NCBI RefSeq assembly: GCF_030733265.1
Contig: NZ_JASHJI010000009.1
Location: 62,001-126,000 of the forward strand
Direction: 5' to 3'
Source of the DNA: Roseibium sp. MMSF_3412
GTDB lineage: Bacteria; Pseudomonadota; Alphaproteobacteria; Rhizobiales; Stappiaceae
DNA: 64,000 nucleotides
Shown here: in pieces, positions 5,767 through 39,152 of the stretch
How the letters are laid out: each line of letters begins with the position of its first letter
How positions within the stretch are numbered: the stretch's first letter is position 1
Made by a program: the position numbers and the translations under genes
The notes under the pieces: generated by a model
Seen by the model: only the letters and a program-made list of their open reading frames with translations
The model's database searches: none
What the model was told of the DNA's origin: nothing

Positions 5767-7398
5767 TTATGCCACCGCCGCAGGCAACCTCTGTGTTCGC
5801 ATCGTGAGTTTTTCCCGGAAGATTGTTCCATCCGGGTTGCGCGGCAACGATTGCAGGATCAGGACACGATGCGGGATCTTGGCAAGATCGACGCCTTCGG
5901 CGTCGAGATAGGCAAAAAACGACGCTGCATCCGGCACCGTGGCGGTATCAGGCACAATAGCCGCGTAGAGTCTCGATCCGAGCACAGGGTCCTCGACTAT
6001 GAACGCAGCCGCCTCTCGTGTTCCCGGATAATTTGAGTAGACAACGTCGATCGTCTCCAGGTTGCCGGTTCCAAGAGCGTAGGCGCCGGGTATCCCGAAA
6101 CCGGAGATTCCGTCTTCCACAAGTTCTACCTTGATGTTGGTATTCAGGAAGCCCGTACCCTCCCAGCGGACACGTCTCTGATCTCCGTTGATCGTGCGCC
6201 AGCCGATTTCCGGGACCATTGGCCCCTTGACGAGAAGTGTCGGCAGGCGTGCCTCGATCTCCTCCGTTACTGCGACTTCTAGAAGGGCTGGCCCGCTTTC
6301 ACACCCGTTCGACCCGTCATGCTTTCCCAAGGCGGTCGCCTTGACCTTTGCCGACGGCCCCCTGGCTTTGGCAACCAGCGCAAACTCATCGGCAATGTGA
6401 ACGTCGACGAGCGGGCGCTTGGCAACGAACGTGTTCGGATGCGGCGAGGAAATGTTCCAGGCGGCCAGGATTGTGGTTTCCGCATTGGCGAGCTTGCGGT
6501 CGAGGGTCTGTGCCAGAGGACCCGGTGTCATGACGATATCGGCGCCGACATCGTTGGCATGTGTGGCCAGGTTGGCAAGTGATGTGGGGTGATGCAGATG
6601 CAGCGTGCTGCCCGTCGCCAGAAAGGGCACCAGTCCTCCGCCCAGCCCCGTCAGGCCGCTGAGCGAATAGGGAACGAGGATCGTGCTGCCCTCCTGAAGG
6701 TCCGCCTCGCTGATCACCATCTGCGCGGCGGATATCCAATGATTGTGGCACCGGCTTACCGGTACGTTTTCCTCACCGCTCCGGCTCCAGCATATCGTTG
6801 CGGTATGATCGGCAGGATCCGGACGTTCCTGCGGCGCGAAGTCGAGCCCGTCCCCCATCTCCGCCAGCATCGGCGCAAGTTCAATCAGGCCGTCCGGCAC
6901 GTCCTTGCCGAGCCCGAACACAAAGCGCAGCGAAAAAAGGTCGCCCGCAACGTCGCGCGCAGCGGTTCCGACATCCCGCGTCTCGATGCGGTCCGCGGCA
7001 ATGAAGCCTTTGGCACCGATGGAATTCAGCGCTTCGAGAACGTTTTTCTGCCGCCAGTGAAGCGGCAGCGGCGAAACGATCAGATCCGCGCGCAACGCCG
7101 CGAGAAAAGCGATGACGGTATCCACGGTGTTGGGTGCCTGGATACCAATGACATGGTCGGCTGACAGACCGACGGTTGTGTAGAACGCGGCAAGACGGTC
7201 GATTTCCCGATCGGCTTCAGCGTAGGTCAGGCTGCGCGGTTCGCCTCCGGTCCAGGCGGCCCTGTCAGGCGCGTCCACCAGCGCAAGACGCTCGGGATGC
7301 TCTGCTGCCGTTCTGCGAAAGAGTTCATCAAGCGGCACATCGGACCAGGCTCCGCTTTCATGGTACTCCTTGGCGAGGTGTTCTTGCGTGACTTTCAT
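5767..7398 (-). CDS. AMP-dependent synthetase/ligase-like protein with degenerate active site
   Basis: A 543-residue protein with the ANL (acyl-CoA synthetase) layout: N-terminal LTYAEADREIDRLA and VIGIQAPNTVDTVIAFLA, a hydrophobic core, and a C-terminal LPRNPDGTIFREKL. The catalytic motifs are eroded. The P-loop position reads CWSRSGEENVPVSRC (from residue 203) where SGTTGxPKG is usual. The C-terminal catalytic Lys of GKI is Thr (GTI). No YGxTE motif is recognisable. AAGGAAA precedes the ATG. It lies 24 bases downstream of the solute-binding protein gene on the same strand. It may have lost adenylation or use a changed substrate; no function is claimed. Confidence 0.75.
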   Translation of the reverse strand: MKVTQEHLAKEYHESGAWSDVPLDELFRRTAAEHPERLALVDAPDRAAWTGGEPRSLTYAEADREIDRLAAFYTTVGLSADHVIGIQAPNTVDTVIAFLAALRADLIVSPLPLHWRQKNVLEALNSIGAKGFIAADRIETRDVGTAARDVAGDLFSLRFVFGLGKDVPDGLIELAPMLAEMGDGLDFAPQERPDPADHTATICWSRSGEENVPVSRCHNHWISAAQMVISEADLQEGSTILVPYSLSGLTGLGGGLVPFLATGSTLHLHHPTSLANLATHANDVGADIVMTPGPLAQTLDRKLANAETTILAAWNISSPHPNTFVAKRPLVDVHIADEFALVAKARGPSAKVKATALGKHDGSNGCESGPALLEVAVTEEIEARLPTLLVKGPMVPEIGWRTINGDQRRVRWEGTGFLNTNIKVELVEDGISGFGIPGAYALGTGNLETIDVVYSNYPGTREAAAFIVEDPVLGSRLYAAIVPDTATVPDAASFFAYLDAEGVDLAKIPHRVLILQSLPRNPDGTIFREKLTMRTQRLPAAVA

Positions 7399-7422
7399 GT
7401 TTTCCTTCGTCCGTTGGTCCGA

Positions 7423-9300
7423 TTATTGCGTTGCCGATGTCCACCACGTGTCAAATTCATGACCATAGAGAGAGTTGTTCTGAGGCGGAGAAACCTTCGT
7501 CCAGTGCGCGACCCAGTCATCGGAGACATGATAGAGCGGGACCGCATAGGCACCGGAGATCAGAACCCTGTCGAAGGCACGCACGGCGTCGACAAATTCT
7601 TCGCGGCTCCGGGCGCCCACGATTTCATCGATCAATGCGTCGATGGCCGGTTCCTTGGCGCCCACGAAGTTGAACGAACCTTCGGCGTCCGCAGATTGGG
7701 AACTCCAGCGCCCGTATTGTTCCGCGCCCGGCGAAAGCGAGGCGTACCAGGTGTTGAACACCATGTCGAAATCCCGTTTGGTGCGGCGCTCCTCGAATTG
7801 TGAAGGATCGACACTGCGCACGTTTACGGTAATGCCCAGCAGTTCGACGGTTCTGATATAGGCAAGCGCGAGTTTTTCCTCGTCCTCGTTCTTGGCCAGG
7901 ATCTCAAACGCCAGTTGCTGCCCGGTGGCCTCGCTGACCAGCTTCCTGTCCTTGAGCGCATACCCGGCATTGTTCAGCTCCGACAAGGCGGCGCGCAGAA
8001 CCTTCCGGTCCCGGCCTGAGCCATCCGCATCCGCCGGTCTCCAGGAACCCTCCATGACCTCGGGGGCAACGGCATCCGGGAAGGGAGCCAGCAGTTCACG
8101 TTCACGATCGCTTGCAGGACGTCCGATGGCGGACAGTTCGGAATTGTCCCAGTAGCCGGCCGTGCGGGAGAAAAGGTCGTAGTAAAGGTTCCGGTTCACC
8201 CAGTTGAAATCGAACAGCATCCGCAGGGCCTTGCGAACGCGAATGTCCTGGAACTGCTCACGGCGCGTATTGAAGGCAATGCCCTGCATCGGTGCCGGAA
8301 CACCCCTTGGAATGGACATCTGGACAACGTCGCCATCGCGTGCGGCGGGGAAATCGAAGCCTTTGGCCCAACGGGCCGGGTCGCGGAACTGCAGCGCGTT
8401 CACGAGGCCTTTCTTGAAGGCCTCCTGCAACGTGGTCTCGTCCCTGAAATATTCGATCCGGATCTCGTCGAAGTTGTCAAAACCGGCTTTGACCGGAAGG
8501 TCCCTGGCCCAGTAGTCCGGGTTCTTTTCATAAACGACGAGCCTTCCAGGCTGGATCGTCTTGAACGTATAGGGCCCCGACCCGACGGGCGGCGTCAGCG
8601 ACGACTTGTCGAAATTCTCCGCATCCGTGTTTTTCTTGGAAAAGATCGGCGCAAGCGCGATCAGCAGCGGAAGTTCCCTGTTGTCACCGTTTTCAAAAAC
8701 CAGCTTGATCCGGTTCGGAGGCGTTATTTCCTTCTCGACAATGGCGCCATACCAGTTGCGGTACGGGGGACGTCCCTTGTCCCGGATAATATCCAGCGAA
8801 AACGCAATATCCTCGACCGTCACTGGCGATCCGTCAGAGAATTTCGCATCCGGATTGAGCTCGAATTCAATCCATTCCCGGCTTTCGGGCATGCGGACAC
8901 GTTGCGCGATCAACCCGTAGAGAGAAAACGGTTCGGCGTAGGACCGCACCATGAGGCTTTCCAGGATGTTGTTGCCGAACTGGCGCTCCCTCATGCCGCG
9001 CGCAGATGTCCATCCGCCCTGCACGATAAACGAATTCATGCTGTCGAACGTGCCTTGTACACCGAGACTGATCGTCCCGCCCTTCGGCGCATCCGGATTG
9101 GCATAGGGAAAGGGTTCGCCGGGTGCCAGGGCAGGGGTCCCGTGCATCGAAATCGCATGTGTCCAGGGCACGGTTTCATCAGAAGCCGCGACCTGGTTGG
9201 CAAGCATGAACGCCACCGCAAAGGTCAGGACGAAACGGCCCTTTGACTTGCTCAAAAGACAATTTACCGTCCTGACGAGGTCAAGAATACGCATAACCAT
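7423..9300 (-). CDS. Extracellular solute-binding protein family 5, YejA-like (peptide/microcin type)
   Basis: Periplasmic binding protein for an oligopeptide-type ABC transporter. Of 625 residues, the first 40 hold a signal peptide ending near ANQVAASDETVPW. It then shows family-5 features: FPYANPDAPKGGTISLG, LNPDAKFSDGSPVTVEDIAFS, SGPYTFKTIQPGRLVVYEKNPDYW and VRKALRMLFDFNWVN. Length and the HAISMHGTPALAPGEPFPY start resemble YejA. The start at 9300 (AAGGGA upstream) is preferred over GTG 9303 or ATG 9294. No permease or ATPase genes are adjacent, so its transporter is encoded elsewhere. Confidence 0.88.
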   Translation of the reverse strand: MVMRILDLVRTVNCLLSKSKGRFVLTFAVAFMLANQVAASDETVPWTHAISMHGTPALAPGEPFPYANPDAPKGGTISLGVQGTFDSMNSFIVQGGWTSARGMRERQFGNNILESLMVRSYAEPFSLYGLIAQRVRMPESREWIEFELNPDAKFSDGSPVTVEDIAFSLDIIRDKGRPPYRNWYGAIVEKEITPPNRIKLVFENGDNRELPLLIALAPIFSKKNTDAENFDKSSLTPPVGSGPYTFKTIQPGRLVVYEKNPDYWARDLPVKAGFDNFDEIRIEYFRDETTLQEAFKKGLVNALQFRDPARWAKGFDFPAARDGDVVQMSIPRGVPAPMQGIAFNTRREQFQDIRVRKALRMLFDFNWVNRNLYYDLFSRTAGYWDNSELSAIGRPASDRERELLAPFPDAVAPEVMEGSWRPADADGSGRDRKVLRAALSELNNAGYALKDRKLVSEATGQQLAFEILAKNEDEEKLALAYIRTVELLGITVNVRSVDPSQFEERRTKRDFDMVFNTWYASLSPGAEQYGRWSSQSADAEGSFNFVGAKEPAIDALIDEIVGARSREEFVDAVRAFDRVLISGAYAVPLYHVSDDWVAHWTKVSPPQNNSLYGHEFDTWWTSATQ

Positions 9301-14469: not shown

Positions 14470-15672
14470 TCATCCCGGACGCCGGAAACCGGATGCCGGA
14501 GCCATGCCCTCGCGCATCAGGAACCTTTTGAGCGGCGCGATCCTGTCGACAACGTAAAGTCCGAGGCCACGGGCGGCCTGGACGGGCAGGAACGGCGTCA
14601 GCAGCGATCTGTTGAGTATGTCGACGGCATTGGTTCTGGTAGCGATGTCGCGTGTGCGCTTTTTCTCGTAGTGCTGAAGGATGGCATTGTCGCCCGGATC
14701 CATGTTCCTGAGCCGTGCGCCTTCGATCACTGCCGTCAGGTCTATGATGTCGCGCAGCGACAGATTCAGGCCTTGTGCGCCGATGGGCGGAAAGACATGG
14801 GCTGCTTCGCCGATCAGGGCAATTCTTTCGCCCACAAGGCGGTGCGCGTTCATGCCGCTCAGCGGAAAACTCTTCACGCACGAAGCCAGCTTGAAAGAGC
14901 CAAGGATCGAATGCGCCCGGCGCTCAAGTTCCATCGCGAGCGCGTCCGCTTCCATCGCACACAATCTCGCGGCACCTTCCTCCGTCTCGACGCAGACAAT
15001 GGAAGACATGTTGCCCGGGAGCGGGACGAGCGTGAACGGTCCTGTTTTCGTGTGGAACTCCGTCGATATGCTGCTATGCGGAAGTCTGTGCTCGACATTG
15101 AGAACGACCGCGACCTGAGGATAGGTCCAGGTCTTCACCTCGATCCCGGCCGCTTCGCGAAGCACTGACTTTCGTCCATCGGCCGCGACCGCCAAACGGG
15201 CACGAAGGCTCTCTCCCGACGCCGTTCGGATGTGAACATGCTCTGACGATGTTTCGATGGAAACAGCGTGTTCGGGGATGACGGTCAGTGTGTCTTCAGC
15301 GCCGCATTTTTCTTCAAGTACCGCATTCAGTTTGTCATTCAAAATATTGAATCCAAATTCGTTTAGCTGAAGATCGGAAGAATCGAAAATGACTTCGGGT
15401 GCTCTGATCAGTCCACCCGTGTCGTCAACCATCCGCATCTTTGCAAGAGGTGCCGTGCTTTGTGAAAGTTCGTCCCAGACACCGATGCGCTCCAGGAAGG
15501 AAATCGATTGTTGCCAGAGCGCGGTCGTGCGGCCGTCCGGCCCATTTGGAACCGGAGCGACAAGTGAAACCGACAAGCCAAGCTGCGCCAGTCCGATTGC
15601 GGCAATTCGGCCGGATGGACCGCCGCCGACAACAACAATGTCCTGTACACTCGACTGATCGGATTTTGACAT
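14470..15672 (-). CDS. UbiH/UbiF/VisC-family FAD-dependent hydroxylase
   Basis: A 400-residue flavoprotein monooxygenase of the ubiquinone-ring hydroxylase family. N-terminal FAD-binding motif DIVVVGGGPSGRIAAIGLA, middle AVAADGRKSVLREAAG, and the second FAD motif ALIGEAAHVFPPIGAQGLNLSL. The ATG at 15672 is preferred over the frame start at 15699. Which ring position it hydroxylates is not decidable here. Confidence 0.9.
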   Translation of the reverse strand: MSKSDQSSVQDIVVVGGGPSGRIAAIGLAQLGLSVSLVAPVPNGPDGRTTALWQQSISFLERIGVWDELSQSTAPLAKMRMVDDTGGLIRAPEVIFDSSDLQLNEFGFNILNDKLNAVLEEKCGAEDTLTVIPEHAVSIETSSEHVHIRTASGESLRARLAVAADGRKSVLREAAGIEVKTWTYPQVAVVLNVEHRLPHSSISTEFHTKTGPFTLVPLPGNMSSIVCVETEEGAARLCAMEADALAMELERRAHSILGSFKLASCVKSFPLSGMNAHRLVGERIALIGEAAHVFPPIGAQGLNLSLRDIIDLTAVIEGARLRNMDPGDNAILQHYEKKRTRDIATRTNAVDILNRSLLTPFLPVQAARGLGLYVVDRIAPLKRFLMREGMAPASGFRRPG

Positions 15673-15874
15673 ATCTCTTGCCTGAGTTTCCCGTTCCACT
15701 GCAACAACATGCGCCTTTCCGCCATATAATCAACGGGGCGAAACCACGCAGGCTTGCCGGGAACCGAATTTCGCAACAGAAAAACGCGCTCTGTATGCGC
15801 AAGATCAAATCCGCTATCGAAAAGCGGCCTTACACTGGCACTCTGGATATCGACAAGTGCGACCGACGGAGCCG

Positions 15875-16795
15875 ATGACAGCAACAGCGACGGAAAAAAA
15901 CACTCTGACACAGCAGCCTGAAACCGGCATCAATCGGCGCGGCTGGCCACTCGTACTGCTGTTCGTCGTTGCGCTCAGCCTTGCCGGCTGGAGCTACCTG
16001 CTTGTCATGATTGCGGACATGGTACCGGCGATGGACATGACCGAGGCCGGGCCGGGCATGGGTGTTTTCAATCACTTCAACATATTCGCAGGCTTGTCTG
16101 CGGAAGCCCGGGCAGCCCTGGCGGTGATTTGCCTGCCGGCAGGGGCCACATTCGGCATGCCGGGGCCAGACATGACCGGATACGACCTGGTCAAGGTATT
16201 CCTGATGTGGACCATGATGTCGATGGCGATGATGCTCCCGACAGCCATTCCCATGATCAGGGCCTATCATGCCTGGCTCCGACGCGGTCCGGTGCACGCG
16301 GGCGCCATGACCGCTCCGTCCATTGCCGCTGTGCTGGGGTATCTCTCGATCTGGCTCGGTTATGCCGTTGTCGCCACTTTTGCCCAATGGGGGCTTTCCA
16401 TCGCGGGCGGCCTGAGTGACATGATGGCGCCGGCCAGTCTTGCCCTGACGACCTCCGTTCTGTTTGCAGCCGGTCTTTACCAGTTCACGCCGGCAAAGAC
16501 CGCGTGCCTGCAGCGTTGCTGGTATCCGCGCTGGACATTCTCCGGCGATCAGACCGGCCGCGGACTTGTGAACGGTTATCGCGAAGGTCTCGAGCAGGGA
16601 CTGATCTGCCTGGGCTGCTGCTGGGCCGTCATGACAGTCATGTTTGCGGTCGGCCTGATGAATGTCGTCTGGATCGCCCTACTGGGAGGCATAATGGCAC
16701 TGGAAAAGACATTTCCGAGCAGGGTGTTACCCAGGCTGATAGGAGCCGGCCTGATCGGTTGGGCGACCCTCCTGGTCGGACTGATTTACGCCTGA
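15875..16795 (+). CDS. DUF2182 predicted metal-binding integral membrane protein
   Basis: A 306-residue membrane protein with about seven hydrophobic segments. Features of DUF2182 are seen: a Met-rich transmembrane stretch FLMWTMMSMAMMLPTAIPM, YQFTPAKTACLQRC, and GLICLGCCWAVMTVMFAVG with closely spaced Cys and Met residues that could bind copper or another soft metal. ATG at 15875 follows CGGAG; a GTG at 15857 would add six residues. Function not established for the family. Confidence 0.82.
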   Translation: MTATATEKNTLTQQPETGINRRGWPLVLLFVVALSLAGWSYLLVMIADMVPAMDMTEAGPGMGVFNHFNIFAGLSAEARAALAVICLPAGATFGMPGPDMTGYDLVKVFLMWTMMSMAMMLPTAIPMIRAYHAWLRRGPVHAGAMTAPSIAAVLGYLSIWLGYAVVATFAQWGLSIAGGLSDMMAPASLALTTSVLFAAGLYQFTPAKTACLQRCWYPRWTFSGDQTGRGLVNGYREGLEQGLICLGCCWAVMTVMFAVGLMNVVWIALLGGIMALEKTFPSRVLPRLIGAGLIGWATLLVGLIYA

Positions 16796-33948: not shown

Positions 33949-33975
33949 CCGGGTGGAAACGGGTTTTCCACCCGG
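33949..33975 (-). terminator. Perfect hairpin just past the ureohydrolase operon
   Basis: CCGGGTGGAAA, 5-base loop, TTTCCACCCGG, an 11-base-pair stem 12 bases beyond the last stop of the minus-strand operon. There is no U-run, so it may be a weak terminator or 3' stabiliser. Confidence 0.55.
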
Positions 33976-33987
33976 AATCGGTTGAAG

Positions 33988-34200
33988 TCAGTGCTTTTGG
34001 GACCGACGTCTTGAAGAGCGCACCTTCAGGAGGCCGAACCCGAGCACGATCGCACCGGCGACCAGCGCCAGGTGAAACGGAGAACTCAGAAGATGCTGAA
34101 CGGCTTCGGACCAGCCCGAGACCTCGTGGTGGTCACCCGGATGTGCCAGGGCAGGGGATGCGATCAGGGAAAGGGCCGTTGCGGTGACGAGGTGTTTCAT
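33988..34200 (-). CDS. Small exported/membrane protein with His-rich mature N-terminus
   Basis: A 70-residue protein: a signal peptide (MKHLVTATALSLIASPALA), then HPGDHHEVSGWSEAVQHLL and one C-terminal transmembrane helix (LALVAGAIVLGFGLL) with a basic tail. Such small 'ALAHPGHH' proteins occur near nickel or urease/HupE-type loci and resemble the DUF6732-type group; that assignment is tentative. It overlaps the His-rich gene by 4 bases, so it is translated with the ureohydrolase operon. A role in periplasmic metal supply is inference. Confidence 0.65.
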   Translation of the reverse strand: MKHLVTATALSLIASPALAHPGDHHEVSGWSEAVQHLLSSPFHLALVAGAIVLGFGLLKVRSSRRRSQKH

Positions 34201-34679
34201 TCTGCGATGTCTCCTGTTTTCAGTCTGTTCGTGAGGATATCGATCAAGTCCATGTCGAGACGCTCGGTCAGCGAAACGTAGGTGAACGTCATGGTTTCGC
34301 GTTCCGAAACCATCGTACCTGGGAACGGCATGTAGACCAGTTCACGCGAGGCAAAGGCCGGGGAGGCGGTGCCTATCTGCCAGTTGGAAACGATCTTTGC
34401 ATCGACGAGGTGCTGAACAAGACCATCCTTGCCGGCCTGATGAAAAGGAACACCTGCCAGTCTCAGGTAGCTCGTCTTGTCTTCAGCTGACCGGAACCCG
34501 TCGATGAAGCTTGTGGCAAGGGCCTGCAGTTCGTCGGCCCGTTCGGCGTCGGACGCACCGTGGACATGCGAGTGGAGATGATCCGCGCCCACGTGATTGT
34601 GGCCATGGTGGTGATGATGATGATCGTGATCGTGGTGATGGTGATCATGACTGCGGGTGTGATGATGATCATGCGGCAT
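34197..34679 (-). CDS. Extremely His-rich N-terminal protein, candidate metal chaperone
   Basis: A 160-residue soluble protein. It starts 4 bases after the ureohydrolase stop, with a GGGGTAAG site. The first 40 residues contain about 22 His and several Asp (clusters such as HDHHHHDHDHHHHHH), a nickel/zinc-binding tail like those of UreE, HypB or SlyD. The remaining 120 residues (ELQALATSFIDGFRSAEDKT ... MDLIDILTNRLKTGD) match no family I recognise; they are not a GTPase, since no P-loop is present. Operon position suggests it delivers or stores metal for the ureohydrolase. It overlaps the small membrane-protein gene by ATGA. Confidence 0.75.
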   Translation of the reverse strand: MPHDHHHTRSHDHHHHDHDHHHHHHGHNHVGADHLHSHVHGASDAERADELQALATSFIDGFRSAEDKTSYLRLAGVPFHQAGKDGLVQHLVDAKIVSNWQIGTASPAFASRELVYMPFPGTMVSERETMTFTYVSLTERLDMDLIDILTNRLKTGDIAE

Positions 34680-34683
34680 CGGC

Positions 34684-35922
34684 TTACCCCACATCCGGAC
34701 CGGCCGGGATCGAAACCGGCTTGTCGATGATCGACTTGTGAGAACCCATCTTGCCGTGGGAAACGAGCGTGCCGAGCACGTCGACGATGACGCGCGTTGC
34801 CAGCAACGCGGTTATATCGGAACAATCGTAAGGCGGTGAAACCTCGACCACTTCAAGCCCGCAAATGCCTTCCTTTGCAACAAGAGAAACGAGTTCCAGC
34901 GCTTCTCTTGGCAAGAAGCCGCCCGGCTCCGGCCAGCCGGTTCCCGGCACGAAGCCGCAATCGACACTGTCGATATCGAAGGAAATATAGACGGCATCGG
35001 CGTCCTGCCAGGCAAGCTCCAGCGCCCGCGCGGCTGTCTCTGCAAGGCCGAGTTCTTCCACGTCTCGCATGGTGAAGATGTTGGTGTTGCGCTCGCGGGC
35101 AACCTCGACACCTTCGCGGGGCACCTGCCAGCCGCCGATGCCGATCTGGACCAGGTTCACCGCCGGCACATTCACCAGGTCCGTTGCGTGGAACCAGGGG
35201 GTTGTGTGCATGCGCTCGTCGAGATCTTTTTCCTGGATATCGATATGCCGGTCGAAGTGAACGATGCCGATCCGTTTGGACGTGCATTCGGCAATGCCGC
35301 GCACGCATGGGAAACCGATGGAATGATCGCCGCCGATCATGATTGGCAGGGCACCGGACGAGGCGACATGGGAAACCGCGCGTGTGATCTGGTCAAAGGT
35401 CTTTTCGATATTCGCCGGGATGGTGAAAATGTCGCCGACATCGCACAGCGTCATCTGTTCGCGCAGATCGACACCCATTTCATAGTTGTAGGGTGTGTAG
35501 AGCGCTGAAATCTTGCGAACGCCCTGCGGACCGAAGCGTGTTCCCGGCCGGTATGTCGTCCCACCGTCGAAGGGAATGCCGATGATGGCCGCATCATAAG
35601 CACCGACCTGGGTCACGTCTTCCACGTAAGGTGCCTTCAGAAACGTGTTGATGCCCGCATAGTGCGGCAGTTCTCCGCGTGCAAAGGTCGGGATCGATTT
35701 GTCGGTCAGGCTGTCCGAACCGGTAAGGCCCATGCGCAGGGCCCATGCCTTTTCCTTTTCCCAGGCGGCGCTCGGCAACGTGCCTTCCTTTTCGGCGGAC
35801 TTCCAGCCGCGCAGTTGCAGCTTGTCGAAATCGGGATGGTGATGCCGTTCGGTGGGCCGCCGTGTGGCGGTCCCGGCAGCCTTGTGCCGTGTCGTCGGAC
35901 CGGAAGGATCAAAGATGGTCAT
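34684..35922 (-). CDS. Ureohydrolase, probable nickel-dependent guanidine hydrolase (agmatinase-family)
   Basis: A 412-residue arginase/agmatinase-superfamily enzyme. Binuclear metal ligands are all visible: H200 (GGDHS), D224/H226/D228 (HFDRHID), D316/D318 (SFDID). It differs from ordinary agmatinases by a long N-terminal extension (about 100 residues before IIGIPFDGG), by HFDRHID where HFDAHTD is usual, and by Trp330 in GTGWPEPGG where GTGTPEPGG is usual. Known guanidine hydrolases (Sll1077 type) belong to this superfamily, need nickel and also have an extended N-terminus. The guanidine-I riboswitch at the head of the operon, the ABC importer and the His-rich neighbour all point to guanidine as substrate (products urea and ammonia). 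Agmatine or another guanidino compound remains possible. Confidence 0.85.
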   Translation of the reverse strand: MTIFDPSGPTTRHKAAGTATRRPTERHHHPDFDKLQLRGWKSAEKEGTLPSAAWEKEKAWALRMGLTGSDSLTDKSIPTFARGELPHYAGINTFLKAPYVEDVTQVGAYDAAIIGIPFDGGTTYRPGTRFGPQGVRKISALYTPYNYEMGVDLREQMTLCDVGDIFTIPANIEKTFDQITRAVSHVASSGALPIMIGGDHSIGFPCVRGIAECTSKRIGIVHFDRHIDIQEKDLDERMHTTPWFHATDLVNVPAVNLVQIGIGGWQVPREGVEVARERNTNIFTMRDVEELGLAETAARALELAWQDADAVYISFDIDSVDCGFVPGTGWPEPGGFLPREALELVSLVAKEGICGLEVVEVSPPYDCSDITALLATRVIVDVLGTLVSHGKMGSHKSIIDKPVSIPAGPDVG

Positions 35923-35931
35923 GGACGTTCC

Positions 35932-36765
35932 TCATGAGGGGTTGGTTTGTGAATTGTTGACTGGATTGCGGTATGCGCCGGCACCAATGGTTTCGGCGAT
36001 GTCGTCCGGCTGAACCGCCGTGTCGGATATCTCGGGAGCTTCGAGCGGCAAGTCGTAGGTGATCGTCGCCCCGAATGCTTCCGGTGCCTGCGGGTCGTGC
36101 CGGATCTTGTCGAAGACAAGCAGCCGCGTGCCCAGCTTGAAGGCCTCGTGAATGTCGTGGGTCACCATGAAGATGGTCATGCCGAGTTCGCGCCAGAGAT
36201 TGAGAAGCAACTCGTGCATGTCCAGCCGGATGCCCGGATCGAGCGCGCCGAACGGTTCGTCCAGCAAGAGAATGCTGGGTTTCTTGATCAATGCCTGTGC
36301 GATCGCAAGACGCTGCTGCATTCCGCCGGAGAGCTGTGCCGGATAGCGGTCGGCGGCAGCGGAAAGCCCGATCCGCTCGAGCAGGTCTTCGATGTCCGAC
36401 AGGGCTGCCTGCTTCCGCGAGCCGAACAGCTTCCCCGCAAGACGCGAGGTCTGGAACTCCTGGGCCAGGATAAGGTTCTCGGCAACGGTAAGGTGCGTGA
36501 ACACAGAATATTTCTGAAAAACGATACCCCGGTCGGGTGTCGGTTCCTCGGGAAGATCATTACCGTCCAGTTGAATCGATCCACGGGTCGGATGCTCCTG
36601 AGAGAGCAGCATGCGCAGGAAGGTGGATTTGCCGCAGCCGGACGCACCGACGATCGTGCAAAAGGCACCTGCCTCGACATCAAGATCGACACGTTCGAGC
36701 ACCGGCGTGCCGTCGTAGAATTTGGAAACACTCTTTACGGAGAGTTTGCAAGGAGGCGTCGTCAT
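35932..36765 (-). CDS. ABC transporter ATPase (nitrate/taurine type), probable guanidine importer
   Basis: A 277-residue SsuB/TauB-like ATPase. Walker A GASGCGKST, Q-loop IVFQKYSVF, signature LSGGMQQRL, Walker B ILLLDEPFGALDP, switch His in MVTHDIHEA. The start ATG at 36765 overlaps the permease stop by ATGA; the much longer frame reaching 37371 is antisense noise joined to it. It lies 9 bases upstream of the ureohydrolase start. Specificity comes from the riboswitch context. Confidence 0.92.
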   Translation of the reverse strand: MTTPPCKLSVKSVSKFYDGTPVLERVDLDVEAGAFCTIVGASGCGKSTFLRMLLSQEHPTRGSIQLDGNDLPEEPTPDRGIVFQKYSVFTHLTVAENLILAQEFQTSRLAGKLFGSRKQAALSDIEDLLERIGLSAAADRYPAQLSGGMQQRLAIAQALIKKPSILLLDEPFGALDPGIRLDMHELLLNLWRELGMTIFMVTHDIHEAFKLGTRLLVFDKIRHDPQAPEAFGATITYDLPLEAPEISDTAVQPDDIAETIGAGAYRNPVNNSQTNPS

Positions 36766-37583
36766 AGCGCGTCGCTCCCCAAGTGATGCCAGCGGAAGGC
36801 GCGTCTGGAAATCAGCAGGAGCAGCCTGTCGAGAAGAAAGGCGAGGAGGGTGATCCACACGACATAAGGCAGGATCACGTCCATGGCGAGATAACGCCGG
36901 ACAAGAAAGATCCGGTATCCGAGACCGGTTGTCGACGCGATGGCCTCGGCCGAGATCAGGAAGATCCACGCAGGCACAAGACCCAGCCGGAGCGCCGTGA
37001 TCAGCTTGGGAAGAACCTGGGGCAGGACAAGCCGCGTGATCATCTGCCAGACCGACGCGCCGAGCGTTTCCGCCTTGATGATCATCTCGCGCGGGATATC
37101 GAGAACTGCCTGGGCGGTCGAGCGGATCATGACCGGAGCGGTTCCGATCACGATCAGCGCAATCTTGGCAACCTCTCCAAGGCCGAAGGTGATGAAGAGG
37201 ATCGGCAGGATCGTGATTGGCGGGATCAGGGAGAATGTCGCCAGGTAAGGGGCAAGCGTGCTTCTCACGTGCGGAATGAAACCGATCGCAATCCCGAGAC
37301 ACAGGGCCAGCAGTGTCGAAACGGCCATCCCGGTTCCAAGCCGCCACAGGCTGTCGAACGTGTCGACCCACAAGAGAAGATCACCGGACCGCCGGTCGGG
37401 AACGGCCGCCATGCGCCAGAACGCTTCGCCCATGCGCTCGATCGAAGGCAGCAGCTTGTCGGCAGGATTTTCCAGCCGCCGGTAATGGCTTGCGATCGCA
37501 TATGTGACGATCGTCGCGACGAACGGCACCATGCCGAGGGCAAGGGCGGTCACCCGGGACGGTCTGCGGTTGATAATGCGCAT
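36762..37583 (-). CDS. ABC transporter permease (nitrate/taurine type), probable guanidine importer
   Basis: A 273-residue inner-membrane permease with about six helices (SRVTALALGMVPFVATIVTY; FSLIPPITILPILFITFG). It has the EAA-type coupling loop AETLGASVWQMITRLVLPQVLP that binds the ATPase. An AAGGA site precedes the ATG. A perfect hairpin separates it from the binding-protein gene. Confidence 0.92.
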   Translation of the reverse strand: MRIINRRPSRVTALALGMVPFVATIVTYAIASHYRRLENPADKLLPSIERMGEAFWRMAAVPDRRSGDLLLWVDTFDSLWRLGTGMAVSTLLALCLGIAIGFIPHVRSTLAPYLATFSLIPPITILPILFITFGLGEVAKIALIVIGTAPVMIRSTAQAVLDIPREMIIKAETLGASVWQMITRLVLPQVLPKLITALRLGLVPAWIFLISAEAIASTTGLGYRIFLVRRYLAMDVILPYVVWITLLAFLLDRLLLLISRRAFRWHHLGSDAL

Positions 37584-37610
37584 GGGAGGTCCTTGCAGCG
37601 AGCGGTCAGG

Positions 37611-37635
37611 TGACCCGGCCCCGACGGCCGGGTCA
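37611..37635 (-). repeat. Intercistronic hairpin between binding-protein and permease genes
   Basis: TGACCCGGCC, loop CCGAC, GGCCGGGTCA: a perfect 10-base-pair stem with no U-run, 17 bases after the binding-protein stop. Such elements often protect upstream mRNA and lower expression of the downstream permease. Confidence 0.6.
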
Positions 37636-37652
37636 TTGTCGGTGCGGACCGC

Positions 37653-38723
37653 TTAGAGCGCGCCGTCCACTGCCATTTGCATGAAACTCGGGTCGAACCG
37701 GAGTTTCACATTGTTCGCATCGCCGTAGATCGAGCCGTCAGCGAAAGCCACTCCGACGAATTCCGGGCTCGGCGCGCCTTCACCCAGAATGCCCTTGTCG
37801 AAGAGAAACTCGGCAACGAATTTCATCGTGGCCGGCAGTTCGGCCGCCTTGGTGAATTCGACGGCCTCGGCAGGCGTGTAGAACATTTTGGTTGTCGCCA
37901 GCTGCGCGTCATAGCCGGCAAGGTCCGTGCCCGACGCTTCTGCCATGGCCGTGCGTGCGGCAATCCCTTCTTCGCTGTCGGACGACATGATCGACATCAG
38001 CTCATACCAGGCACCGACAAGCGCCTTACCGAAGGCAGGATTGTCGGCAAGCGTTTCGGTGTTGACCATCATGACATCGATGATTTCGCCGGGAATTCCG
38101 GCGCTGTCGAAAACCTTGGTGGCATTGGGCTGCGCCTCGATTTCCGAAAGCAGCGGGTTCCAGGTCACGACGGAAGTCACGTCCGCTGTCGCATAGGCGG
38201 CAATCATGTCGGCGTCCGACGTGTTGACCACTGTCAGGTCTTTCTCGGCCAATCCCACCGTGTCGAGCGCACGGGCGAGAAGGTAGTGAGAGACCGACAG
38301 TTCGACGAGGTTGACGGTCTGCCCCTTGATGTCGGCAAGCTCGGCCTTGTCTTTCAGGATGATGCCGTCATTGCCGTTGGAATAGTCGCCGACAATCAGC
38401 GCGGTCGTGTCGACACCGCCACCGGCAGGGATCGACAATGCGTCCATGTTGGTCATGGAGCAGCCGTCATATTCACCGGCCGTATACTGGTTGATGGATT
38501 CGACGTAGTCGTTGATCTGCACGATCTCCACGTCGATCTCGTATTTGTCGGCCCATTTCTTCATGATACCGCTGTCTTGAAGATAGCCCCAGGGCATCCA
38601 GCCGACATAAATGGACCAGCAGACCTTGAAGTCTTTCTTTTCTTCGGCCTGAACCGATGCAACGGACAGCGGCATTGTCAACGCAGCCGCGAGGAGGGAA
38701 GCTTTGGCTATGGATTTCAACAT
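37653..38723 (-). CDS. ABC transporter substrate-binding protein (NMT1/SsuA-like), probable guanidine binder
   Basis: A 356-residue periplasmic protein with a signal peptide (SIAKASLLAAALTMPLSVAS, cut near VQAEE). The mature part opens FKVCWSIYVGWMPWGYLQ, then INDYVESINQYTAGEYDGC and DALSIPAGGGVDT, as in nitrate/sulfonate/taurine-type binding proteins; the aromatic, acidic N-terminal segment would suit a small cation. It is the first gene after the guanidine-I leader; GGAGA precedes the ATG. Ligand assignment depends on the riboswitch. Confidence 0.9.
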   Translation of the reverse strand: MLKSIAKASLLAAALTMPLSVASVQAEEKKDFKVCWSIYVGWMPWGYLQDSGIMKKWADKYEIDVEIVQINDYVESINQYTAGEYDGCSMTNMDALSIPAGGGVDTTALIVGDYSNGNDGIILKDKAELADIKGQTVNLVELSVSHYLLARALDTVGLAEKDLTVVNTSDADMIAAYATADVTSVVTWNPLLSEIEAQPNATKVFDSAGIPGEIIDVMMVNTETLADNPAFGKALVGAWYELMSIMSSDSEEGIAARTAMAEASGTDLAGYDAQLATTKMFYTPAEAVEFTKAAELPATMKFVAEFLFDKGILGEGAPSPEFVGVAFADGSIYGDANNVKLRFDPSFMQMAVDGAL

Positions 38724-38821
38724 TCGTGCGCGTCTCCTGTCTTAAGCCCGCCGGAAGGAACCTGTTGGGCTGTAATCATGAGTTTCTTGCGCACGGCCGG
38801 GAGCAGGTTCGCGCGCGCGAA

Positions 38822-38945
38822 ACCTCGTGCAGTAGTCTCCCGGGTTTTTGTCCCGCCGTGTCACCGGACTATGCCGGTCGACGACCGTTTTTGTCCGGCT
38901 TGCGCCTCTTGGTCCTGCGTCGTGGTCGACCGGATCCCTAGGCGC
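38822..38945 (-). promoter_or_regulatory. Guanidine-I (ykkC) riboswitch
   Basis: On the minus strand the leader reads CTAGGGATCCGG (near 38941), then GGACCAAGAGGC, a variable arm, and finally ACACGG-C-GGGACAAAAACCCGGGAGA (38861-38836). These are the conserved blocks of the ykkC aptamer in the right order and spacing: 5' CUAGGG-UCCG, the GGnCC-GAGAG-like middle block, and ACACGG-GGGA-AAAA-CCCGGGAGA. The aptamer ends about 110 bases before the binding-protein start. An AGGTT...AACCT hairpin follows it and could be the expression platform. The class is known to turn on genes when free guanidine binds. Boundaries are approximate. Confidence 0.9.
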
Positions 38946-39152
38946 GCTGCACACCACATCCGTAGCAATCTGGATGCCAGTTGCTCCCAGCCTTCGAAAT
39001 CGCGATGAAAAACAGAGTGTTACCGGAAAGGCGCAATCACTTTGTCCAAGACTGGAAAGATCCGCAAACCGGATCTGTCTAAAAAAAAGGCACTGCTGGG
39101 CACTTTTCAATCAGCGTGATCCGGACAGGCCGGCAACGAAGATTATCCGCGA

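Follow-up and report, generated by a model that had tools for sequence, protein, structure and literature searches.

We analysed a stretch of 64,000 nucleotides (nt) from Roseibium sp. MMSF_3412, hereafter the window, in which a Guanidine-I riboswitch is followed by six co-oriented genes, the whole operon lying on the minus strand. These genes encode, in this order, a periplasmic binding protein, a permease and an ATPase of an ATP-binding cassette (ABC) importer, a guanidinase-type ureohydrolase (GdmH), the His-rich protein that follows gdmH, which we label HISR, and a small membrane protein. We consider it probable that this is a riboswitch-controlled operon for the import and hydrolysis of guanidine in which HISR serves as the maturation factor of GdmH. 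The riboswitch, the importer and the guanidinase are of a known type, and the novelty, if HISR is a maturation factor, is the HISR family in place of the known nickel chaperones. An earlier note on this DNA had given the same gene order on one strand, which was borne out, and had recorded the His-rich gene without interpreting its function. The features are these:

38835..38952, minus strand: Guanidine-I riboswitch aptamer (RF00442; Rfam cmscan, 64.0 bits, gathering score 63)
38724..38834, minus strand: leader from the aptamer to the start codon (sequence, folds and an alignment of 13 sequences)
37653..38723, minus strand: periplasmic binding protein, putative guanidine binder (TIGR03427, 558.7 bits, cut-off 333.9; NMT1 match)
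36762..37583, minus strand: ABC permease (PF00528, 71.1 bits)
35932..36765, minus strand: ABC ATPase (PF00005, 119.8 bits)
34684..35922, minus strand: GdmH-type guanidine hydrolase, 412 residues (phmmer, specificity residues and metal ligands)
34197..34679, minus strand, reading frame open from 34694: HISR, 160 residues (co-occurrence, synteny, no family match, structure model)
33988..34200, minus strand: small membrane protein, 70 residues (PF04955, 16.5 bits, under the cut-off of 23)

HISR and its linkage to the guanidinase gene

The presence of HISR follows that of GdmH closely. In the order sample (297 genomes; thresholds E 1e-100 for GdmH and E 1e-3 for HISR) GdmH was found in 31 genomes and HISR in the same 31, a GdmH count that would miss divergent relatives because of its threshold. 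In the phylum sample (349 genomes; GdmH threshold E 1e-80, used for the class sample too) GdmH was found in 6 genomes and HISR in the same 6, 3 of which were already in the order sample. The class sample of 289 genomes held GdmH-like proteins in 9, HISR in 8 and both in 7, two of these double-positives having been seen earlier. Furthermore, among 11 plasmid records with GdmH, HISR was present in all 7 alphaproteobacterial ones (five of them from S. fredii) and in none of the 4 from Actinomycetota.

The two genes are also neighbours. A scan of a genome collection for the HISR motif gave 141 stretches, of which 136 were confirmed as relatives, and the best 80 were kept as loci, all of them from Alphaproteobacteria as judged from record titles. 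These loci were fetched by HISR alone, and gdmH was on the same stretch in all 80, on the same strand and just upstream in 79. The distance from the gdmH stop to the HISR start was at most 384 nt in the 75 loci where it was measured (L125, L133, L144 and L148, with a BLAST match running beyond the stop, were left out). HISR stays beside gdmH also in five untruncated loci, L113, L117, L119, L129 and L138, that are without relatives of the binding protein and permease of the window; therefore, HISR is tied to the enzyme rather than to the importer.

Regarding the protein itself, the reading frame could start within the end of gdmH (34694) or 4 nt past it (34679), and the second Met, at 34679 (MPHDHHH), is the likelier start because relatives agree better with it. 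The window HISR has 22 His among its first 40 residues. Members of the family, 160-165 residues long, combine a His-rich tail with a core of about 115 residues. In this core 11 residues are invariant over 54 members, clustered in the motif D-x-x-S-x-L-R-x-A-x-x-P-F.

HISR is apparently an undescribed protein family. None of 23 full-length members matched Pfam or NCBIfam at 0.01, none of 54 cores matched PHROGs at 0.01, and a profile of the core found no PDB sequence at E 1. Two single-member cores gave chance-level Pfam matches (0.05-0.09). ZrgA was considered as a relative and rejected, since its match (E 0.055, 13.1 bits with a cut-off of 185) lay on the His-rich stretch; the PDB matches of the full window HISR (from 2e-4) lay on that stretch as well and were taken for purification tags. 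The family searches gave no support for HISR as HypA or any other described family. It is annotated as a 'hypothetical protein' in two public records, and a literature search, not covering Funck 2022 (Nature), yielded no paper that we recognised as describing this family.

In the AlphaFold2 model the core is made of two helices, six strands and a final helix. Its predicted local distance difference test score (pLDDT) was 91-98 within the full protein, and the core modelled alone had an overall pLDDT of 89.8 and a predicted template modelling score of 0.75. For neither the full HISR model nor the core model did Foldseek return a PDB match with an E of 0.001 or lower, the best being 0.3 and 0.67. 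The predicted fold is thus unmatched in the PDB, which falls short of proving a new fold.

The guanidinase, the importer and the riboswitch

The identification of the ureohydrolase as a guanidinase is well supported by its sequence. In a phmmer search against all PDB sequences it scored 542.7 bits to Synechocystis GdmH (7esr/7oi1) and 529.4 bits to the Nitrospira inopinata enzyme (9fek), with identities over the aligned parts of 229/350 (65%) to 7esr and 220/356 (62%) to 9fek, and the next solved protein after the guanidinases was proclavaminate amidinohydrolase with 179.9 bits. The protein belongs to the arginase family (PF00491, 260.2 bits), and its six metal ligands, H200, D224, H226, D228, D316 and D318, are all present, as assigned with the ligand pattern of arginases.

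As to specificity, the available part of the comammox paper gives Thr, His and Trp at positions 105, 222 and 313 of the N. inopinata enzyme as the mark of guanidinases (PMC11410670). T123, H239 and W330 of the window GdmH match these three residues, a match that depends on an inferred offset of two by which the PDB chain index departs from the numbering in the paper; the raw index printed other residues, and the offset was adopted because T, H, W and E, the four residues given there, then all fit. In a residue survey of 87 fetched loci (L071-L157) all ten positions were common to 85, the exceptions being the truncated L087 and L154 of Embleya, which has Thr for Trp. The earlier note had called the protein a guanidine hydrolase, and the roughly threefold higher bit score to guanidinases than to other solved proteins, together with the T, H and W residues, argues for that call. 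The motifs HFDRHID and GTGWPEPGG that it had listed as unusual are present and closely resemble the HFDRHVD and GTGWPEPGG of known guanidinases.

GdmH enzymes are nickel-dependent according to the available parts of two papers (PMC12186494, PMC11410670), and the GdmH of the window very probably splits guanidine with nickel as its metal. An agmatinase was considered too, and the gene is annotated as 'agmatinase family protein' in both annotated public records seen; this reading was rejected on the guanidinase bit scores and residues, TIGR01230 of NCBIfam giving 173.2 bits, under its cut-off of 174.3. A broader alternative is that the enzyme acts on agmatine, dimethylguanidine or a guanidino acid, that the substrate of the importer is urea or the same compound, and that the riboswitch merely senses released guanidine. 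The agmatinase score falling just under its cut-off and a binding-protein family named for urea would fit such a scheme; however, the score gap between guanidinases and any other solved protein, the three specificity residues and a riboswitch pattern preceding 70 of the 80 relatives speak against it, and we regard it as very improbable.

The importer very probably takes up guanidine, as the riboswitch and the gene order indicate. The family TIGR03427, to which the binding protein belongs, bears the name 'putative urea ABC transporter', and transport of urea by this protein or importer is still conceivable. Urease alpha (PF00449) was above cut-off in 33 of 34 genomes carrying the system, the genome of the window included, and therefore urea can be used onward and urease could finish the pathway.

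The earlier note had counted three ATGA overlaps or near-zero spacers between the genes, which turn out to be two ATGA overlaps and two near-zero spacers. The ATPase start overlaps the permease stop, and the start of the small membrane protein overlaps the HISR stop, both as ATGA. A spacer of 9 nt separates the ATPase gene from gdmH, and one of 69 nt lies between the genes for the binding protein and the permease. This last gap (37584-37652) contains a strong GC-rich inverted repeat (GACCCGGCC ... GGCCGGGTC), which could determine how much binding protein is made relative to permease.

The operon is probably switched on by guanidine, to judge from its leader. The match to the Rfam covariance model RF00442 covers the full model (1-107, E 4.7e-09) with a score just above the cut-off, and it was the single match in a genome-wide search (150 of 280 first-look candidates scored). 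The earlier note had named a guanidine-I riboswitch and proposed this search, and 64.0 bits over 63 upholds it; the aptamer is indeed in the leader, but its match reaches 38952 rather than ending at 38945. In an alignment of the window with 12 close relatives from the 80 loci, the aptamer core and the leader at the ribosome-binding site and start codon were strongly conserved.

The core pattern of the aptamer was found upstream in 70 of the 80 HISR loci, and in L129 and L138 it stands directly ahead of gdmH. Six of the ten negative loci were cut off by contig ends, whereas L113, L117, L118 and L119 were not. Nine loci were scanned with Rfam, and Guanidine-I scored 75.7 bits in L151 (Rubrobacter indicoceani) and 82.9 bits in L157 (Sinorhizobium fredii NGR234), both of them more distant from the window than the aligned relatives; L157 carries gdmH and HISR as well.

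Between the aptamer and the start codon, CCGGGAG/CTCCCGG and CGTGCGC/GCGCACG are able to pair, and folding of the leader gave z values of -2.14 and -0.74. Several leader segments may pair in competing ways, and one pairing would cover the ribosome-binding site; the aligned sequences are so similar that they do not discriminate among these pairings. A promoter and terminator scan of 38600-39100 gave none on the leader strand and one terminator-like site on the other strand, where 0.6 were expected.

Nickel context and the proposed role of HISR

In the mechanism that we propose, guanidine would bind the Guanidine-I aptamer and turn on the six-gene operon, the ABC importer would bring guanidine in, the nickel-dependent GdmH would hydrolyse it to urea and ammonium, and the urease encoded elsewhere in the genome would finish the degradation. 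The His-rich tail of HISR would collect Ni2+, and its core would dock on GdmH, or on an unfolded or apo form of it, through a contact made by D-x-x-S-x-L-R-x-A-x-x-P-F and hand the metal over. The membrane protein encoded after HISR, which is HupE in some relatives and the 70-residue protein here, may help to supply nickel.

HISR is a good candidate for a dedicated nickel metallochaperone of the guanidinase. We propose a nickel role because GdmH is nickel-dependent, HypA is mostly absent, HupE adjoins HISR in some relatives, the metformin hydrolase operon offers a precedent and HISR is linked to the enzyme. HypA (PF01155) was absent from 26 of the 34 genomes carrying the system, including that of the window, which is 99.99% complete; in the other 8 it was never near gdmH. 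None of the six window genes was HypB in the Pfam and NCBIfam scans, no search having been aimed at HypB.

A HupE-type gene directly follows HISR in 18 of the 80 loci, and a profile built from those 18 finds none elsewhere in the 80. All five HupE-type genes scanned matched PF04955 at E 3e-45 or better. The small protein occupies this place in 16 loci and, as far as these profiles go, neither is present in 46; no locus has both. The 70-residue protein of the window has an apparent signal peptide, an AHPGDHH motif and one membrane span (by eye), with a HupE-like start, and its PF04955 match ranks behind those of two other sub-threshold Pfam families. Its relatives were detected by tblastn in 9 of the 80 loci and in the said 16 by a positional-family profile built from 11; they measure 65-78 residues where measured, and none of five scanned besides that of the window matched HupE. 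Small proteins with this start (AHPGxH, SPFH) were observed in Roseibium and its kin, Kiloniellaceae, Denitrobaculum, Oricola and Tateyamaria.

Two other roles for HISR have to be weighed. It might buffer or store nickel (or zinc), being kept for the nickel demand of the guanidinase and making no direct contact with GdmH; Hpn of Helicobacter, a His-rich protein of this type, is the model. The His content, which ranges from 5 to 31 per whole protein across the 80 members although the gene keeps its position, and the HupE genes adjoining HISR in 18 loci are consistent with a buffer. However, a pure buffer would need neither the 11 invariant residues of the core nor its confidently predicted fold, and in our samples HISR occurs apart from the guanidinase only as a fragment, even though urease, a nickel enzyme, is encoded in 33 of the 34 genomes. 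We judge this role unlikely.

We think it equally unlikely that HISR acts as a structural partner of GdmH or as a subunit that stabilises it, comparable to the beta subunit of metformin hydrolase, with the His tail being secondary. HISR closely adjoins gdmH, its folded core is without conserved metal ligands, L112 retains the core with hardly any His, and metformin hydrolase requires a second subunit, as stated in the available part of its description (PMC11399263), all of which would suit a subunit. Against it, the N. inopinata guanidinase is described in the part of the paper at hand as a homohexamer resembling GdmH (PMC11410670), and most HISR members retain the His-rich tail, with GHN in 69 and HN in 79 of the 80.

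Our preferred reading, HISR as the maturation factor of GdmH, also has several observations weighing against it. Over the 54 members, no His or Cys of the core is invariant or nearly so, and therefore metal handling rests on the variable tail, which leaves the HISR of L112 with only 5 His. Operon co-inheritance alone can yield tight co-occurrence. The coincidence in the class sample is imperfect, the gaps from gdmH reach 384 nt, and in L118 (Jiella endophytica; 7902-8366 and 15411-16382), the sole such locus of the 80, HISR is about 7 kb from gdmH and on the opposite strand. Outside Alphaproteobacteria, GdmH relatives without HISR occur in 4 actinobacterial records, 3 of them with the full residue signature. 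Within the class sample, G675 has a GdmH relative without HISR, with Thr replacing Trp and an extra His-rich loop, and G663 has a similar one, also without HISR, that runs off the contig; Rfam found no guanidine riboswitch in either stretch. In turn, all that G718 has of HISR is a C-terminal piece (L159, 7103-7360), with no GdmH match in the stretch or in the genome. In L117, a metagenome-assembled genome of Hyphomicrobiaceae, the GdmH match (7110-7994) covers residues 111-405 only, with HISR intact downstream; gdmH may be shortened or damaged there, or it may have an unusual start, and neither riboswitch nor ABC genes were found in that locus. Seven of the loci scanned with Rfam gave no Guanidine-I match: L113, L117, L118, L119 and, from Actinomycetota, L152, L153 and L154.

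The nickel context brings further points of this kind. The absence of HypA shows only that HypA is not needed, as the survey covered HypA alone and solely in genomes that carry the system. HupE is missing from most loci. Furthermore, in the available part of the comammox paper the N. inopinata GdmH made in E. coli without co-expressed chaperones was active and partly nickel-loaded (PMC11410670), and therefore a dedicated chaperone may not be essential. The same part of that paper calls the nickel loading of the guanidinase unclear.

The fullest version of our proposal would make HISR a GTPase-independent, single-protein nickel-insertion factor with a fold unmatched in the PDB, serving only the guanidinase, partnered with a HupE-type importer, and having replaced a HypA/HypB-type pair across Alphaproteobacteria. 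We regard this version as tentative, with its chances nearly balanced.

Some loci deserve mention in their own right. L160 (5247-6437) and L161 (2495-3310), from Alphaproteobacteria of other families, encode GdmH relatives with a His-rich loop inserted after the conserved ERMHTTPW. In L160 the motif GTGWPEPGG is replaced by GTGTPEPGG, whereas the truncated L161 does not extend that far; neither locus showed a riboswitch. These proteins may represent a ureohydrolase with a different specificity and a metal-gathering loop of its own. The HISR fragment of L159, perhaps a remnant of a lost operon, adjoins FtsX-type ABC genes (by eye).

Because the candidate is one gene, linked almost one to one with the enzyme, the nickel loading of guanidinases becomes testable by co-expression. 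The linkage also gives a partner to a family so far recorded as 'hypothetical protein', and the loci suggest that marine and rhizobial Alphaproteobacteria use guanidine.

Comparison with known systems

The closest known counterpart is the GdmH operon of Synechocystis, which likewise has a guanidine-I riboswitch, an ABC importer, a GdmH (65% identical over 350 positions) and a presumed use of guanidine as nitrogen source. Its nickel-delivery proteins are presumably GdmA and GdmB, of HypA/HypB type. The available part of the paper reports two such proteins in the operon (PMC12186494), whereas the genome of the window has no HypA and has HISR beside gdmH.

The locus of the comammox organism N. 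inopinata is alike in its Guanidine-I riboswitch, its GdmH (62% over 356 positions) and its urease. It differs in having an APC permease where the window has an ABC importer, and the available part of the paper states that no nickel chaperone was found in that genome (PMC11410670). On the plasmid of Rubrobacter indicoceani (L151, 5861-8840), a Guanidine-I riboswitch heads the genes for GdmH and for a sodium:solute symporter, and formamidase and urease are encoded close by; the transporter is a different one and no HISR was found.

The HupE/UreJ nickel permeases (PF04955) are represented by the gene that follows HISR in 18 of the 80 relatives, whereas the window has the sub-threshold small protein in that place. 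Finally, the operons for metformin or dimethylguanidine hydrolase (hypA-hypB-alpha-beta-hupE) resemble ours in having a nickel-dependent ureohydrolase with nickel helpers adjacent and HupE last, and according to the available part of their description, activation of metformin hydrolase depended on co-expression of HypA/HypB (PMC11399263). That system, as described there, uses HypA/HypB and an enzyme of two subunits (PMC11399263), whereas the window has HISR and a GdmH-type enzyme, whose phmmer scores are 126-142 bits for the chains of metformin hydrolase and 543 bits for GdmH.

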